From Rufibacter sp. XAAS-G3-1 (GTDB lineage Bacteria; Bacteroidota; Bacteroidia; Cytophagales; Hymenobacteraceae), in NCBI RefSeq assembly GCF_013623775.1, contig NZ_JABFAM010000003.1, positions 248,001 through 312,000 of the forward strand: a stretch of DNA of 64,000 bases. The letters run 5' to 3'. Positions within the stretch are counted from its first letter, which is position 1. Each line of letters starts with the position of its first letter. The notes beneath the pieces were generated by a model, which was not told where the DNA came from, did not search any database, and saw only the letters and a list, made by a program, of their open reading frames with translations. This document shows, in pieces, positions 9,096 to 61,804 of the stretch. The position numbers and the translations under genes are program-made.

Positions 9096-10733
9096 GTGGG
9101 ATGTAGTTCATGTTCTAGTGGCGGCTGCGGCACCAAAACGACTTCTTCGCCTGACGGCACCGAAGTTGTAGCGGGCTGCAAAAGCAACGGCGGTTGCAGC
9201 ACGGGAGGCTGTAACCGATTAAATGTATTTGATTGGCTCTCAGACATGGAAATACCCGTGTCTTTCAAAGAGTTTGACATAGTAGAGATCCGCTTCAAAG
9301 GCGGGCGCAAAGAGTTTTTCCGGAACATCAACCACCTGCCGCTCATCACCGGCGACGCCGTGGTGGTAGACGTGCCCAACGGGCACCACATTGGCCATGT
9401 GTCTCTGAAGGGCGAGCTGGTGCGGTTGCAGATGAACAAGAAAAAGGTTCAGAACAACGACGAGCTCCGGAGCATCTACCGCGTGGCCACCGAGAAAGAC
9501 ATGGAGAAGTTCAACCTCGCCCGCGAGCAGGAACCCACCACCATGTACCGCGCCCGTGCCATTGTGCAGGAACTCAAGCTCAAAATGAAGCTCTCAGACG
9601 TAGAGTACCAAGCCGATAAAACCAAAGCCACCTTCTTCTACTCCGCCGATGACCGCGTGGATTTCAGGGAACTGATCAAGAAACTGGCTGAGGAATTCAA
9701 GGTACGGATTGAGATGCGCCAAATCAGCCTGCGGCACGAAGCCGGACGTTTGGGCGGCATTGGATCTTGCGGCCGTGAACTGTGCTGCTCTACCTGGCTC
9801 ACCGATTTTAGGAGCGTCTCTACCACGGCGGCGCGTTACCAGAACCTATCTCTGAACCCCAGCAAGCTGTCTGGCCAGTGCGGGCGCCTCAAGTGCTGCC
9901 TCAACTATGAGCTGGAAACGTACATGGATGCCCTCAAAGACATCCCGAACGTAAACCGCCCGCTCCAAACCAAAGCCGGAGACGCCTTTCTGCAGAAGAC
10001 CGACATCTTCCGCCGCATCATGTGGTTCGGGTACCGGGGCGACAGCAACTGGTTCCCGGTCACCGTGGAGCGGGTGCACGAGGTTCTGAAAATGAACGCC
10101 GCCGGCGAAATGCCGGAGAACCTGGCCGAGGAAGTGAAAAAGCAGCAGCCCGAAGTGGTGGACTTTGTGGAAGCCCTGGAAGGCAACCTAGACCGTCTGG
10201 ACGAGCAATACAAAGCCAAGAAAAAACGCAACAAGAAGAAGAATAAAAACGGAGGCACCGCCACCGCTGCCTCGGAAGTGTTGGCCCAAGCAGCCCCCAC
10301 CCCAGAAGTGCGCCGTGACCGTCCTTCGGGCCGGCCGGTTCCCGCAGAACCAAGGCCACGCCCTGAGCGCGGTAGCGACAGACCGGCAACCTCTGAAAGC
10401 AGACCGCCAAGGCCTGAGCGCGAACCCCAGGGGAAAGGCCAGCAGCCGCAAGGCAAGCCCCGCCCAGAGCGTGACCAGAACCAGCAGAACCGCCCGCCCA
10501 GAGAGAACCGGCCACCCCGGCCAGAGCGTCTGCCAGGGCAGCGACCGCCGCAAAACAGGCCACAACCGGCAGCACCGCAGGCCGCAACTCCCGGCGCAGT
10601 AGCAGCACCGGAAAGACCAGAAGCCCCGCCACGGCCCGAAGGAGAGCAACGCAGCCGCCGGAACCGCAACCGGAACCACAGAAACCGCCGCCCCGGTAGC
10701 CCGGAAGGCGCACCACCACAAGCAGAAGCGTAA
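9096..10733 (+). CDS. ricT: PSP1/RicT family protein with long basic proline-rich tail
   Basis: 545 residues. The N-terminus is Cys-rich (MGCSSCSSGGCG and further Cys pairs), then a PSP1 domain (about 110-270) with RLGGIGSCGRELCCSTWL and SGQCGRLKCCLNYE, the cysteine signature of RicT/YaaT. RicT with RicA and RicF forms a complex linked to RNase Y in Bacillus; in Bacteroidota its role is less clear. From about residue 375 the tail is low complexity, with many PRPER and NRPPR segments and RRNRNRN near the end, suggesting RNA binding. The start is GTG 9096, which gives the usual MGC opening. The stop overlaps the gldH start (TAATG). Confidence 0.88.
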   Translation: MGCSSCSSGGCGTKTTSSPDGTEVVAGCKSNGGCSTGGCNRLNVFDWLSDMEIPVSFKEFDIVEIRFKGGRKEFFRNINHLPLITGDAVVVDVPNGHHIGHVSLKGELVRLQMNKKKVQNNDELRSIYRVATEKDMEKFNLAREQEPTTMYRARAIVQELKLKMKLSDVEYQADKTKATFFYSADDRVDFRELIKKLAEEFKVRIEMRQISLRHEAGRLGGIGSCGRELCCSTWLTDFRSVSTTAARYQNLSLNPSKLSGQCGRLKCCLNYELETYMDALKDIPNVNRPLQTKAGDAFLQKTDIFRRIMWFGYRGDSNWFPVTVERVHEVLKMNAAGEMPENLAEEVKKQQPEVVDFVEALEGNLDRLDEQYKAKKKRNKKKNKNGGTATAASEVLAQAAPTPEVRRDRPSGRPVPAEPRPRPERGSDRPATSESRPPRPEREPQGKGQQPQGKPRPERDQNQQNRPPRENRPPRPERLPGQRPPQNRPQPAAPQAATPGAVAAPERPEAPPRPEGEQRSRRNRNRNHRNRRPGSPEGAPPQAEA

Positions 10734-12489: not shown

Positions 12490-12627
12490 CAGTATAAAAT
12501 CCTGGCAGCCCTTCCGGGTATTCTTGAGGCGAGAAGTGAGGTAAACTCAGTAGCTATTGTCTTTGTGCCAGCCTTATTCCTTTCCTTAGAATAACCCCCG
12601 ATTTATGGGTTTATGGGCTCCTTTTGG

Positions 12628-12662
12628 CATAAGTAGCAGTAACCGCTCACGGCCACGGGGCC
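12628..12662 (-). repeat. GC-rich repeat core, copy D (reverse strand)
   Basis: In reverse complement it reads GGCTGGGCCCCGTGGCCGTG followed by AGCGGTTACTGCTA, matching the core at 7478-7503, 45231-45260 and 49946-49982. The flanks do not match the long copies. Confidence 0.6.
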
Positions 12663-13123
12663 CAGCCTTCCGGCTGAGATAAGTGCGTTAAGATAAGGCT
12701 ATTACTGCTTGAGACAGCGCCCCCCCCTCGGAGGCTAATCTTGTAGGGAAAAAGAACGGTTATTTATTTCCAAAAGATTCCAGAGAATCAAACCGCTCTT
12801 TCGGAGTTCCACTCCGGAAGCCTATTGCCGGGGAGTTCCACTCCCCTTCTTTTACCCGTGGCTCCCGGCGGAGTGGAATTCCGCAGCAGGCAGGTTCAGG
12901 AGTAGAACTCCCGAACAGCAGGGAAATATTTTTCTCTACAAGATTAGCCTTTGCCCAGGAGGGGAGCTTCCCCAACTTACTGCTTTTGGCAGGCTAGGGC
13001 GCAGATTTACTTCCGTGACGCATATAACTGCCGTTATGCAGGAGCTTCACCCCTACCTCTCTCACAGAGGAGGCCGCTGATGCGTTTAGAGGTTGTTTTG
13101 CGAAAAACGAGCCCAAAACGGAG

Positions 13124-13156
13124 AAACCTGTGAGGTCTTGGAGACCTCACAGGTTT
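13124..13156. repeat. CCTCACAGGTTT palindromic repeat
   Basis: A perfect 15-base stem with a TGG loop. A close relative is at 56066-56098. Hairpins of this kind are frequent in many Cytophagales genomes, to my knowledge. Confidence 0.75.
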
Positions 13157-13208
13157 AGCATGAACTGGCATGAGACAGCCGTCCTGTGCCTAAGAACCAT
13201 ACTGTTGT

Positions 13209-13242
13209 GGTGCGTAGAGTTAGCGCCAGCGCTCTACGCACC
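13209..13242. repeat. GTGCGTAG hairpin
   Basis: The 11-base arms GGTGCGTAGAG and CTCTACGCACC enclose a 12-base loop. It shares GTGCGTAG with the longer perfect hairpin at 49682-49720. Confidence 0.6.
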
Positions 13243-13280
13243 CCTGGACAGCCAATCTCCTGATTGGCGAGCCATCGGCA

Positions 13281-13420
13281 CAGACACTCGCAGGTCTAAA
13301 GACGCGACAAGGTCTTTTGGAGCAGGCGGTAGTACAGGGAGGGGGAGCCAATAAAAACTGGCGCGAGTCTCCAGACGCACCAGGAGCTACCAGCACGTTT
13401 GCGTAACATCAGGCACATAA
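13281..13420 (+). repeat. ~140 bp repeat, copy 1
   Basis: Shared with 38373-38527: GACACTC, TCTAAAGAC, CAAGGTCTTT, TGGAGCAGGCGGTA, GAGCCAATAAAAA, CTGGCGCGAG and CTCCAGAC in the same order. The second copy has an extra palindromic block. No coding frame is kept between copies. Confidence 0.7.
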
Positions 13421-13827
13421 CTTTGCAAGTCACAGATTTACTTTCGTGCCAGAGGAGATCTGCTGCTATTTTCCCTTTGGATAAGCCCCAAAGAGAGCCC
13501 CTCCCGCTAAAGCACTGCCGCCACTTCAACTCCAATGCGTACCTGTTATCTAGCAATGGCATAAAACCACTTTCTAGTTTTTACCTCTTTTTCAAAAATC
13601 AGGCAGAAAAGACAAGGGCAAAAATTAAATTCACAATTAACCCCTCCAACCTGACATAAATTTTAAGGCTATTCTCTTATATATTCTTTCTGGATTAAAA
13701 AATCGCAATGCGGGAGTTAACCATGCAAACACCGGTTCGTATAGTATAAACACTTTCCTCAGAAGTGGGTACAACGCCTGTTTCTAAGGCAAGCTTTCCA
13801 AACTCACTATTTCATAAACCTAAAACA

Positions 13828-13834
13828 AAGGAGA
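13828..13834 (+). promoter_or_regulatory. strong Shine-Dalgarno site of the Gly-rich gene
   Basis: AAAGGAG, 7 bases before the ATG. It is like the sites before the genes at 2588 and 3755 and unlike most genes in the window. Confidence 0.7.
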
Positions 13835-13841
13835 TTCAACC

Positions 13842-15884
13842 ATGGAAGACAATCAAAAAGGGCAGCAAAACGATAATAAAGGCTCCTCTACTACTGGATC
13901 AGGCAGCGGTGGCATGGGTGCAAACGCTTCAACCTCCTCTTCATCTGATGCGATGGGCAAAAGCTCAACCTCAGATGCCTCTCTTGGATCTTCGGGCGCC
14001 CAAGGCAGCTCTGGCTCATCTTCTGGTATGACGGGGCAAAGTGGTTCAGGAGCCAGTGGCTCCAGCGATTCTTCCAATACTTCCGGAACCGGAACCTCTT
14101 CATCTGAGTCCAAAACGACAGCGGGTAGGAAAGGCGCCGGAAGCAAAACTTCTTCCACTTCCTCTACTCCAAAAGCCGGCTCTAAAGCAGGTTCTTCTAC
14201 TTCTGCCAAGGCTTCGGGAGATAAATCAGGCACCGGTAAATCATCTGGCAAATCTGCCTCGGCTTCTACCTCAGATAACAACACAACCGGCGGCTCAGCG
14301 GCCTCCATGGGAAGCGGCATGGGCTACGGCGGCTCACAAGGTGGCGAAACCGGCAACCAGGGCAGTTCTTCCATGAGCGGCATTAGTGGTGGCGGTAACT
14401 TCAACGGTGAACAAGGCGGCTACGGCGCACAAGGCGGCGGCGGAGCTGGAGGTGCTGGCAACGGCTACCAGGGAGGAGGCAATAACGGCAGCTTCGGCGG
14501 CGGAAACTCCTGGAACAACCATGATGACCAACACAACCGTTACGGCGGACAAGGTGGCGGCAACTACGGCAACCAAGGTGGTTCCAACTACGGACAAGGC
14601 GGTTACGGCGGCAACAGCAACCAAGGTAGCTCCAACTATGGTATGGGCGGCTATGGTGGCCATACCGGTCACTCACAAGGCGGTCAAGGTGGTTACGGCG
14701 GCGGTTCTGGCATGGGCAGCAACCCGTATGGCATGAGTTCACAAGGCGGCTACGCCGGAAATTCTTCGCGCTCAGAATCTGACCGCGGCGGTTATTCAAA
14801 CTACGGTGGCTCTGGCTATTACGGAAACCAAATGGGCTACGGCACTGAGAGCGGCTACGGCATGCACGGCGGCGGCCAAGGCAGCGGCCACGGTGGATAT
14901 AGCCAAGGCTACAGCAACCAGCAAGGCGGCTCTTACGGTTCTATGGGCTCCAGAGGTGGTTCTTACAGCGAAGAATACGGTTCACGTGGCGGCTCACGCG
15001 GTGGTCAGGGCTACGATGGCAATTCTGACTATGACGGTGGCTACAGCCAGGGCGGAAACGCGTACAGCACCCAATACGGTGGCGGCGGTTCTGGCCGGGG
15101 CGGCAGCAATTACGGTTCACATGACATGGGCTCAAGAGGCGGCTACGGCGGTTCTATGGGCAATGACAGGGGCTCCCGCGGTGGTTACGGCTCCTCCCAG
15201 GGCGGAAACCAGGATTGGCAAGGCGGTGGCGGCTCACAGGGCGGCCGAGGCAACGATAGCAGCGGCTACGGCTCTATGAGCGGTGGCGGTGGCCAAGGTG
15301 GTTACAGCACCCACAATGCCCAGGGCGGCGACTTTGGTTCCCGTTCTTCGCAGGGAGGCGGCAACCGTTCCCAGGGCGGCTACGGTTCTATGGGCGGTGG
15401 CAACTACGGCGGTTCTTCTGACGGAGCCAGCCAGGGATCACAAGGCGGCAACTATGGCCAAGGCGGTCATGGCGGTGGCAGCTTTGGCGGTTCCAACTAC
15501 GGCAACCTGGGCAATGACATGGGCTCGCGCGGTGGATATGGTTCCTCCGGTACCGGTTCCAGAAATGGCGGCCAGGAGCACGGCCACGGCGGTGCCTCTA
15601 CCGGCGGCGGTTACGGCGACCAGAGCCGTGACTACGGCATGGGCGGCTACGGCCAAGGGGGCAGCAGCTACGGCAGCTCCAGCGGTTACGGTGCCTCTTC
15701 TTCTGGTATGGGCTCTCGCGGCGGCTATGGTGACACGCAAGGCAGACAATCCAGCTATGGCGGCGGCGGCTCTGGCTACGAGAATCGCTCCAGATACGGA
15801 AACTCCAATGACCATGATGATTCTGAGGATAACAACCGTGACGGACGTTCTTCCCGTGGTGGTTCTTCCAGAGATGACCGTTAG
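13842..15884 (+). CDS. Gly/Ser/Tyr-rich low-complexity (prion-like) protein
   Basis: 680 residues with almost no ordinary globular sequence. Residues 1-145 are Ser/Thr/Gly/Lys-rich; residues 150-645 are irregular repeats of GGYG, QGGYG, SRGG, MGSRGGYG and NYG; the end is charged (DHDDSEDNNRDGRSSRGG, then SSRDDR). There is no signal peptide and no membrane segment, so it is probably cytoplasmic. Cys is absent and Trp nearly so; spaced Tyr and Arg-Gly-Gly motifs recall FUS-type domains that phase-separate, but that is analogy only. AAAGGAG lies 7 bases before ATG 13842. It ends at a long terminator hairpin and stands alone. The strong RBS and dedicated terminator suggest high expression. The function is unknown. 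Confidence 0.85.
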   Translation: MEDNQKGQQNDNKGSSTTGSGSGGMGANASTSSSSDAMGKSSTSDASLGSSGAQGSSGSSSGMTGQSGSGASGSSDSSNTSGTGTSSSESKTTAGRKGAGSKTSSTSSTPKAGSKAGSSTSAKASGDKSGTGKSSGKSASASTSDNNTTGGSAASMGSGMGYGGSQGGETGNQGSSSMSGISGGGNFNGEQGGYGAQGGGGAGGAGNGYQGGGNNGSFGGGNSWNNHDDQHNRYGGQGGGNYGNQGGSNYGQGGYGGNSNQGSSNYGMGGYGGHTGHSQGGQGGYGGGSGMGSNPYGMSSQGGYAGNSSRSESDRGGYSNYGGSGYYGNQMGYGTESGYGMHGGGQGSGHGGYSQGYSNQQGGSYGSMGSRGGSYSEEYGSRGGSRGGQGYDGNSDYDGGYSQGGNAYSTQYGGGGSGRGGSNYGSHDMGSRGGYGGSMGNDRGSRGGYGSSQGGNQDWQGGGGSQGGRGNDSSGYGSMSGGGGQGGYSTHNAQGGDFGSRSSQGGGNRSQGGYGSMGGGNYGGSSDGASQGSQGGNYGQGGHGGGSFGGSNYGNLGNDMGSRGGYGSSGTGSRNGGQEHGHGGASTGGGYGDQSRDYGMGGYGQGGSSYGSSSGYGASSSGMGSRGGYGDTQGRQSSYGGGGSGYENRSRYGNSNDHDDSEDNNRDGRSSRGGSSRDDR

Positions 15885-15895
15885 TAGGTTCTAGC

Positions 15896-15955
15896 CTATA
15901 CCTTACAACAAAAAGCCCCGCTGAAACTAGCGGGGCTTTTTGTTGTAAGGTATAG
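15896..15955. terminator. long bidirectional terminator hairpin
   Basis: A perfect 27-base stem (15896-15922 and 15929-15955) with a GAAACT loop; the GC core AGCCCCGCT is flanked by A5/T5 tracts. It lies between the convergent Gly-rich and NmrA-like genes. Confidence 0.9.
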
Positions 15956-61697: not shown

Positions 61698-61716
61698 CTG
61701 TTTTGTTCCCTTGTTT

Positions 61717-61788
61717 TTCCCTTCGCCGGCATTACCCGGATCAGGTTCAATGGGTATGATCTCAGCCCGTTATCTTAAGGCACCCCTA
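61717..61788 (-). promoter_or_regulatory. TPP riboswitch (THI element)
   Basis: On the minus strand the conserved parts appear in order: GGGGTGCC, CGGGCTGAGATCATACCC, GAACCTGATCCGGGTAATGC and CGGCGAAGGG. These are the P1-P5 and TPP-binding sequences of the family. It is 79 bases ahead of the receptor ATG. TPP binding is expected to turn expression off. Confidence 0.95.
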
Positions 61789-61796
61789 AACTGAGG

Positions 61797-61804
61797 CAAA
61801 GCTA
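61797..61804 (-). promoter_or_regulatory. -7 box (TAGCTTTG) of the riboswitch transcript
   Basis: A full match to TAnnTTTG placed so that transcription would start at about 61790, at the first bases of the riboswitch. A TTGG about 20 bases further upstream could serve as the -33 box. Confidence 0.6.

Follow-up and report, generated by a model that had tools for sequence, protein, structure and literature searches.

What use could a bacterium have for a protein of 680 residues that is rich in Gly, Ser and Tyr and of low complexity along its chain? The question is raised by a gene within a 64 000 nt stretch of DNA from Rufibacter sp. XAAS-G3-1 (referred to below as the window). Tyr/Arg-patterned prion-like proteins have been studied mainly in eukaryotes. 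The answer proposed here, to which we give about an even chance, is a disordered cytoplasmic protein of the Hymenobacteraceae (order Cytophagales) that would be induced by general stress, condense or gel, and thereby shield macromolecules. Coordinates of the features are collated in Table 1.

Table 1. Features of the locus (window coordinates) and the basis of each assignment.
Feature	Position	Strand	Basis
Syntenic upstream neighbour, endonuclease/exonuclease/phosphatase gene, PF03372	11386..12489	+	Pfam, synteny
Promoter-like element AAC-N16-CGTATAG, ECF-type architecture	13719..13744	+	upstream of 37/37 homologues; also before stress genes
5' leader hairpin with a 13-pair stem (window sequence: two pairs broken)	13753..13793	+	covariation, 14/16 genus sequences
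Shine-Dalgarno AAAGGAG	13827..13833	+	sequence; AAGGAG in most aligned genus sequences
Coding sequence, 680 aa, low-complexity, predicted disordered	13842..15884	+	translation, homologues, pLDDT
Basic S/T/A/K segment, residues 91-145, net +8	14112..14276	+	composition, alignment
Near-invariant genus core MSSQGGYAGNSSRSESDRGGYSNYGGSGYYGNQMGYGTESGYG, residues 298-340	14733..14861	+	identity, pN/pS
Motif GGSY-x-[DE]-[EA]-[YM], RGGSYSEEY in the window, residues 371-379	14952..14978	+	37/37 homologues
Mixed-charge tail, residues 641-680	15762..15881	+	composition
Intrinsic-terminator-like palindrome, perfect 13-bp, 6-nt loop, ends TTTTT	15910..15941	+	sequence
Syntenic downstream neighbour, NmrA-like oxidoreductase, PF05368	16013..16882	-	Pfam; similar gene in 7/11 regions by inspection

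Reading frame and composition of the protein

The forward frame was translated into 680 residues with no internal stop; the longest open stretch obtained in 500 mononucleotide shuffles (three forward frames) was 271 codons, with a mean of 135. The product consists of Gly (34.1%), Ser (20.4%), Gln plus Asn (13.1%), Tyr (6.9%) and Arg (3.8%) among others, with 0.4% Ile, Leu and Val taken together and no Cys, so that the real, Cys-free and almost aliphatic-free frame claimed in the preliminary description is confirmed. The GGYG, QGG and SRGG units named there were counted 11, 22 and 8 times, respectively, and RGG 10 times. The N-terminal part is made up of Ser/Thr/Gly and is Tyr-free; next come the basic segment, a long Gly/Tyr/Ser/Gln part and the mixed-charge tail. 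The latter had been called a charged RGG tail: its charge was found (seven Arg, seven Asp and two Glu in residues 641-680), its RGG character was not, a single RGG being located there and the others being scattered along the chain.

The properties of the protein were compared across 37 homologues (17 from genera g1 and g2 selected by homology, 11 selected by synteny and nine from g6 selected by the motif described below). Cys is absent and the GRAVY value lies between -1.09 and -2.05 in all of them, and the Tyr-rich ones have a net charge per residue that deviates from zero by no more than 0.015. With 12-residue windows over the first 52 residues, the highest Kyte-Doolittle mean was -0.18 for the window protein and did not exceed 0.97 in any of the 37 homologues; a hydrophobic N-terminal stretch resembling a signal peptide is thus absent, as had been stated earlier.

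Another gene in the window, PSP1-domain-encoding (9096-10733, forward strand), carries a long Pro/Arg/Gln-rich, apparently disordered C-terminal tail.

Conservation within the genus

An open homologue was found in 15/15 other Rufibacter genomes searched, in 1/21 other genomes of the family (as a weak match) and in 0/22 genomes of other families. Frameshifted homologues, which had been named beforehand as one of the findings that would speak against the earlier reading, were not encountered in these 15 genomes. Sixteen genus proteins and one from genus g2 (537-756 aa, all Cys-free) were aligned. For the window sequence versus the other genus sequences, dS was 0.89-1.47 and dN 0.11-0.35 (Nei-Gojobori, near saturation); judged from these rates, the gene is under purifying selection in the genus. 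A frameshifted or artefactual frame was ruled out by the open genus homologues together with this selection.

Conservation is uneven. Mean amino acid identity in residues 301-325 was 0.98, with pN 0.038 and pS 0.50 (16 genus sequences), and in residues 51-100 it was 41-46% with many gaps; such a pattern with a near-invariant core is not what one would expect of a generic low-complexity chain. A profile of residues 291-406 matched 16/16 genus genomes and 0/184 other genomes of the family.

Synteny and the GGSY motif

The neighbourhood of the endonuclease gene was inspected in 12 genomes whose match to it had 51-71% identity, matches of 37-42% (the sole ones in genera g5 and g6) being excluded. 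A low-complexity ORF (533-660 aa) lies downstream of the PF03372 gene in all 11 further regions of the family (genera g2, g3 and g4), usually at a distance of 0.6-1 kb; in the twelfth region, which belongs to another family, the endonuclease gene is there and the low-complexity ORF is absent. In most of these relatives the 0.6-1 kb extend from the endonuclease gene to the start codon; in the window the gap between endonuclease gene and promoter element alone (12490-13718) is long, at 1.2 kb, and the part of it aligned within the genus is not conserved. In one g4 genome (L073, 2161-3194, reverse complement) transposase-like ORFs, recognised by eye, lie between the two genes, with gene and promoter element kept.

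The syntenic g2-g4 proteins carry [RQ]GGSYN[DE]E[YM], the counterpart of RGGSYSEEY in the window. GGSY[NSG][DE][EA][YM] occurs in 37/37 homologues (expected by chance, on average over shuffled proteins, 0.0002), by construction for the nine from g6, the other 28 having been chosen by whole-protein homology or synteny. A 36-position profile of the motif matched 133/200 genomes of the family at E 0.01, with a single match per genome. Genera g1-g4 account for 76 of them (E 1.5e-6 or better) and g6 for 57 (E 9e-7 to 0.009). No match was obtained in 67/200 genomes, nor in any of genus g5, so that five of the six genera match.

Ten g6 regions were fetched, nine of them (L124, whose forward-strand ORF was masked by the overlap filter, being excluded) with a hydrophilic ORF of 297-543 aa. 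A gldH-like gene (by eye) is located upstream in 7/10, and directly downstream an NmrA-like gene in two and a lipoprotein-like gene in five. Six of the nine g6 homologues contain only 12-18 Tyr and less Gly, with GGSYND[EA]Y retained; the position-specific motif persists where the prion-like Gly/Tyr composition is missing. When 395 genomes of the phylum were searched with the motif profile, matches came solely from the own genome, from one g6 genome and from a 79-aa frame, the last being a 10-residue match that was taken as chance; this search missed two of the four family genomes listed, and its sensitivity for g6 is limited. Within the genomes sampled and the sensitivity of the profile, the gene appears to be restricted to this family.

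Promoter element and candidate regulon

The DNA upstream of the 17 aligned sequences is poorly conserved except for the start-codon region and an AACCATG-N12-CGTATAG-like element about 120 nt before the start. AAC-N16/17-CGTAT, relaxed forms chosen after the g4 and g6 sites had been seen, was found at most 250 nt upstream of 37/37 homologues and in 0.7% of mononucleotide-shuffled upstream regions; the strict form AAC-N16-CGTATA was found upstream of 28/37 (shuffled 0.14%).

In the own genome AAC-N16-CGTATA gave 18 sites, fewer than the 26 of its reversed control. All 18 and 26 sites were classified, and 12/18 own sites versus 1/26 control sites are placed 15-160 nt ahead of an ORF and are not contained in a longer one (Fisher p 9.5e-6, with the 15-160 nt limits fixed after the real sites had been seen). 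The genes behind these 12 sites are this gene, those assigned by Pfam to CsbD, DUF892, catalase, two DUF4142 proteins, DUF305 and an M23 peptidase, and four ORFs with no Pfam match above the cut-off (L131, L132, L142 and L144). A DUF1206 gene has the element 492 nt upstream, beyond the 15-160 nt range.

A search of five related genomes for AAC-N16-CGTATAG returned 23 sites, against 56 for the reversed control, which was used for its count only. An ORF 14-170 nt downstream, together with a location outside longer ORFs, was recorded for 16/23; of the remaining sites, L195 has such an ORF and also lies inside a longer one, L181, L182 and L189 lie inside a longer ORF, and three have neither. The genes behind the sites include the homologue (four), DUF892-like genes (four), SDR-like oxidoreductases (four), small acetyltransferases (two) and YtxH/CsbD (one); Pfam agreed for one DUF892-like gene, two SDR-like genes, both acetyltransferases and YtxH/CsbD, the remaining genes being assigned by eye. 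In the fifth of these genomes the spacing before the homologue is N17. Because the site counts do not exceed the reversed control, it is the positions of the sites and their neighbours that support the element.

The alphaproteobacterial general stress promoter is described in PMC7083833 as GGAAC-N16-CGTT with an almost invariant AAC and a regulon that contains csbD and catalases. Owing to the AAC-N16-CGT likeness (AAC at -35, CGT at -10 and a spacing of 16-17 nt in 37/37) and to the csbD/catalase regulon, with the element before known stress genes and site counts not above control, the element found here is read as an ECF-type general-stress promoter by architecture, from which the sigma factor class is inferred. 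Its presence upstream of 37/37 homologues suggests a stress response as a concrete role.

The sites outline a candidate general-stress regulon of the Hymenobacteraceae with AAC-N16-CGTATA(G), comprising L083, L084, L130, L136, L140 and L141 in the own genome and L174, L178, L179, L180, L185, L186, L187, L190, L192, L193 and L195 in relatives; the literature search found no published description of such a regulon. One member of the own genome, L132:1589-2884 (forward strand, contig C7 near 37296), encodes a second Gly/Ser/Asn/Tyr-rich protein (432 aa, no Pfam match, EGFFGRITHGIKDAWNSIAGDED close to its C-terminus), 64 nt behind AAC-N16-CGTATA.

Leader hairpin, ribosome-binding site and terminator

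Just after the -10 region the leader can form a stem in which 80.2% of alignment cells are paired and 7/13 pairs are changed on both sides (14/16 genus sequences, L037 and L043 being excluded because their loop length differs). The stem was defined from the aligned L032, which favours it. None of 500 shuffles equalled the alignment in paired cells or in covariation score; its number of both-sided pairs was reached by 17 and that of further pair types by 9, and slid versions of the stem gave at most 50.5% pairing. RNAalifold recovered 11 of the pairs unaided, with a covariation term near zero; leaders of genera beyond g1 were subjected to single-sequence folding only. Protection of the mRNA by the hairpin is the simplest reading, one that fits high expression without showing it. 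Rfam (gathering scores) returned no RNA gene in the leader, its sole match in the window being a TPP riboswitch elsewhere (61700-61797, reverse strand, 67.7 bits).

The ribosome-binding site had been ranked in the top class of the window; it is strong, though not the only one of its kind, since AAAGGAG occurs eight times on the forward strand. A simple terminator scan called no site near the palindrome behind the gene, in our opinion because the T run belongs to the stem.

Predicted disorder and spacing of aromatic residues

An AF2 model computed from 10 genus proteins had a mean pLDDT of 37.0, with 677/680 residues below 50. This is taken as predicted disorder along the whole chain, a shallow alignment also lowering pLDDT. 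Even spacing of aromatic residues is a mark of phase-separating prion-like domains. In 31/31 proteins with at least 30 Tyr the aromatics were spaced more evenly than in shuffles (5-residue blobs), and with 10-residue blobs one protein (L129) was at p 0.051; GYG-type units and shared ancestry may explain part of this evenness.

No match to the window protein was obtained in Pfam and NCBIfam at E 1 or among PDB sequences at E 0.001, and membership of a family known to these collections was therefore rejected. Neither Pfam nor NCBIfam revealed a folded RNA-binding domain, whether RRM, cold-shock or another type, and the AF2 model has no confident part. In a sequence search of the own genome (E 0.001) the protein found only itself, and thus no paralogue at the level of sequence similarity. 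The earlier overall reading, a cytoplasmic prion-like disordered protein, holds at the level of computation (composition, pLDDT, aromatic spacing and no export stretch). What goes beyond it is the motif where that composition is missing and the ECF-type element at 37/37 homologues.

Proposed mechanism and alternative explanations

In the proposed mechanism, an ECF-type sigma factor would transcribe the gene from AAC-N16-CGTATAG together with those for catalase, CsbD, DUF892 and similar proteins. The 5' hairpin would probably stabilise the mRNA, giving a long-lived transcript, and the protein would then build up in the cytoplasm. Its Gly/Ser/Asn/Gln spacers would keep the chain soluble, extended, hydrated and flexible, with evenly spaced Tyr and scattered Arg acting as weak stickers. 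At high concentration, under crowding or at low water (the likely setting being drying, starvation or oxidation), a condensed or gelled state would form and shield cytoplasmic macromolecules, and the GGSYxEEY motif may contact a specific partner or client. Induction, condensation, protection and binding through the motif are thus what we infer from the computed gene, conservation, disorder, motif, promoter association and hairpin covariation. The strongest counter-evidence comes from g6: because six of its nine homologues are Tyr-poor, sticker-driven condensation cannot be the one function shared by all. What they have in common may be the motif, or hydrophilicity as such, and condensation may be lineage-specific. 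A more far-reaching version is put forward tentatively, as possible and rather doubtful: a counterpart of stress-granule scaffolds in which a sigma-controlled FUS-like protein, retained at one locus in much of the family, would reversibly condense or gel the cytoplasm under stress, take up clients via GGSYxEEY and have the second Gly/Ser/Tyr-rich protein of the regulon as its partner.

Among the alternatives, a hydrophilin/LEA-like protectant would be a dilute shield, soluble or vitrifying, that forms no condensates and has no particular partner. The hydrophilin rule, as worded in PMC4190154, asks for Gly above 6%, GRAVY below -1 and mean hydrophilicity above 1. Gly amounts to 13.1-35.0% and GRAVY lies below -1 in 37/37 homologues; a mean hydrophilicity above 1 was found in 0/37 (window 0.16; Hopp-Woods). 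Since two of the three parts of the rule hold, the protein is not classed as a hydrophilin, and it may still work like one. The stress-type promoter favours such a protectant, as does the retention of hydrophilicity while composition varies, the Ala/Pro-containing g6 forms included. On the other hand, the hydrophilin pool in PMC4190154 spans 6.2-16.8% Gly and a mean hydrophilicity of -0.3 to 1, a Gly range exceeded by the up to 35% found here, and a generic shield needs neither a near-invariant 43-residue genus core nor a common motif. We regard this explanation as somewhat improbable.

Two further explanations are considered unlikely. In the first, the basic segment and the RGG units would attach to RNA or DNA, with the low-complexity part organising the nucleoid or mRNA under stress. 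The net charge of +8 in residues 91-145 and the 10 RGG units point in this direction, as do the TPKA-like stretch, which is similar to histone H1 tails, and the FUS/hnRNP-like composition. Such a scaffold is hardly expected, however, from a protein in which no folded RNA-binding domain (RRM, cold-shock or other) was found, whose overall net charge is near zero and which contains only 3.8% Arg. In the second, which is given equally little weight, the chain would be a linker or bristle on which GGSYxEEY and the genus core are displayed to a single folded partner, an adaptor or anti-sigma-like regulator. The motif in 37/37 homologues (28 not motif-chosen, and also without Gly/Tyr richness) and the pN of 0.038 in the core agree with it, but the length of the chain and the even aromatics in 31/31 Tyr-rich proteins exceed what a linker needs, and the partner side is putative. 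The Gly/Ser/Tyr repeats are similar to those of structural proteins, but export as a fibre or matrix protein of silk or loricrin type was rejected as very improbable: a hydrophobic N-terminal stretch is absent in 37/37, and the promoter is common to enzyme and stress genes, even though a few of the genes behind it are of membrane or exported type (DUF4142, M23).

The stress-induced condensing or gelling protein is accordingly retained as the proposed reading: a long unfolded protein that Rufibacter and many relatives keep at a fixed chromosomal place behind a stress-type switch is a good candidate for a protective condensate or gel. The locus represents a bacterial candidate family (of the 200 genomes searched, 76 had strong motif matches and 57 weaker ones) and offers a measurable motif, a predicted stress switch and a natural series of compositions, Gly/Tyr-rich at one end and Ala/Pro-containing at the other. 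It thus becomes testable whether bacteria use regulated prion-like proteins against drying or oxidation, and whether composition or motif is the functional part.

Comparison with known systems

The low-complexity domains of FUS and hnRNP proteins resemble the window protein in their use of Gly, Ser, Tyr, Gln and Arg, in even aromatics, in predicted disorder and in a net charge near zero. By composition, spacing and the AF2 model, a predicted disordered Gly/Ser/Tyr/Gln-rich domain with well-mixed aromatics is present, whereas a folded RNA-binding domain such as an RRM was not found. The window protein differs also in having more Gly and the GGSYxEEY motif, and its family was found in a single bacterial family among the genomes searched, FUS and hnRNP being eukaryotic. 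Because it has no RNA-binding domain and no sequence match (PDB, E 0.001), it is not classed as a FUS/hnRNP homologue.

Bacterial hydrophilins and LEA-like proteins share high Gly, strong hydrophilicity and disorder, and a stress-linked regulation is predicted for the window protein; they are much shorter. The latter differs by its Tyr/Arg stickers, by its mean hydrophilicity and by the lack of a Pfam match. Hydrophilins from Acinetobacter (Green et al. 2022) are reportedly one example of bacterial desiccation proteins.

The alphaproteobacterial EcfG general stress response (PMC7083833) has the same AAC-N16-CGT architecture and csbD and catalases in its regulon; the window -10 is CGTATA rather than CGTT and the phylum is another one.

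Gly-rich kinked segments are reported from some bacteria too (PMC8551513), and bacterial condensation and drying are reviewed in PMC10534466. The literature search found no paper joining Rufibacter with glycine-rich or containing the motif strings, and the excerpts of PMC6400439 and PMC10534466 make no mention of the family. In the survey PMC6400439, Bacteroidetes belong to the phyla in which prion predictions make up the largest fraction, and Clostridium Rho is likewise a bacterial protein of prion-like composition. Its prion-like region is sporadic in the genus, according to that survey, whereas the window protein is nearly all of low complexity and its ORF is kept genus-wide and beyond.
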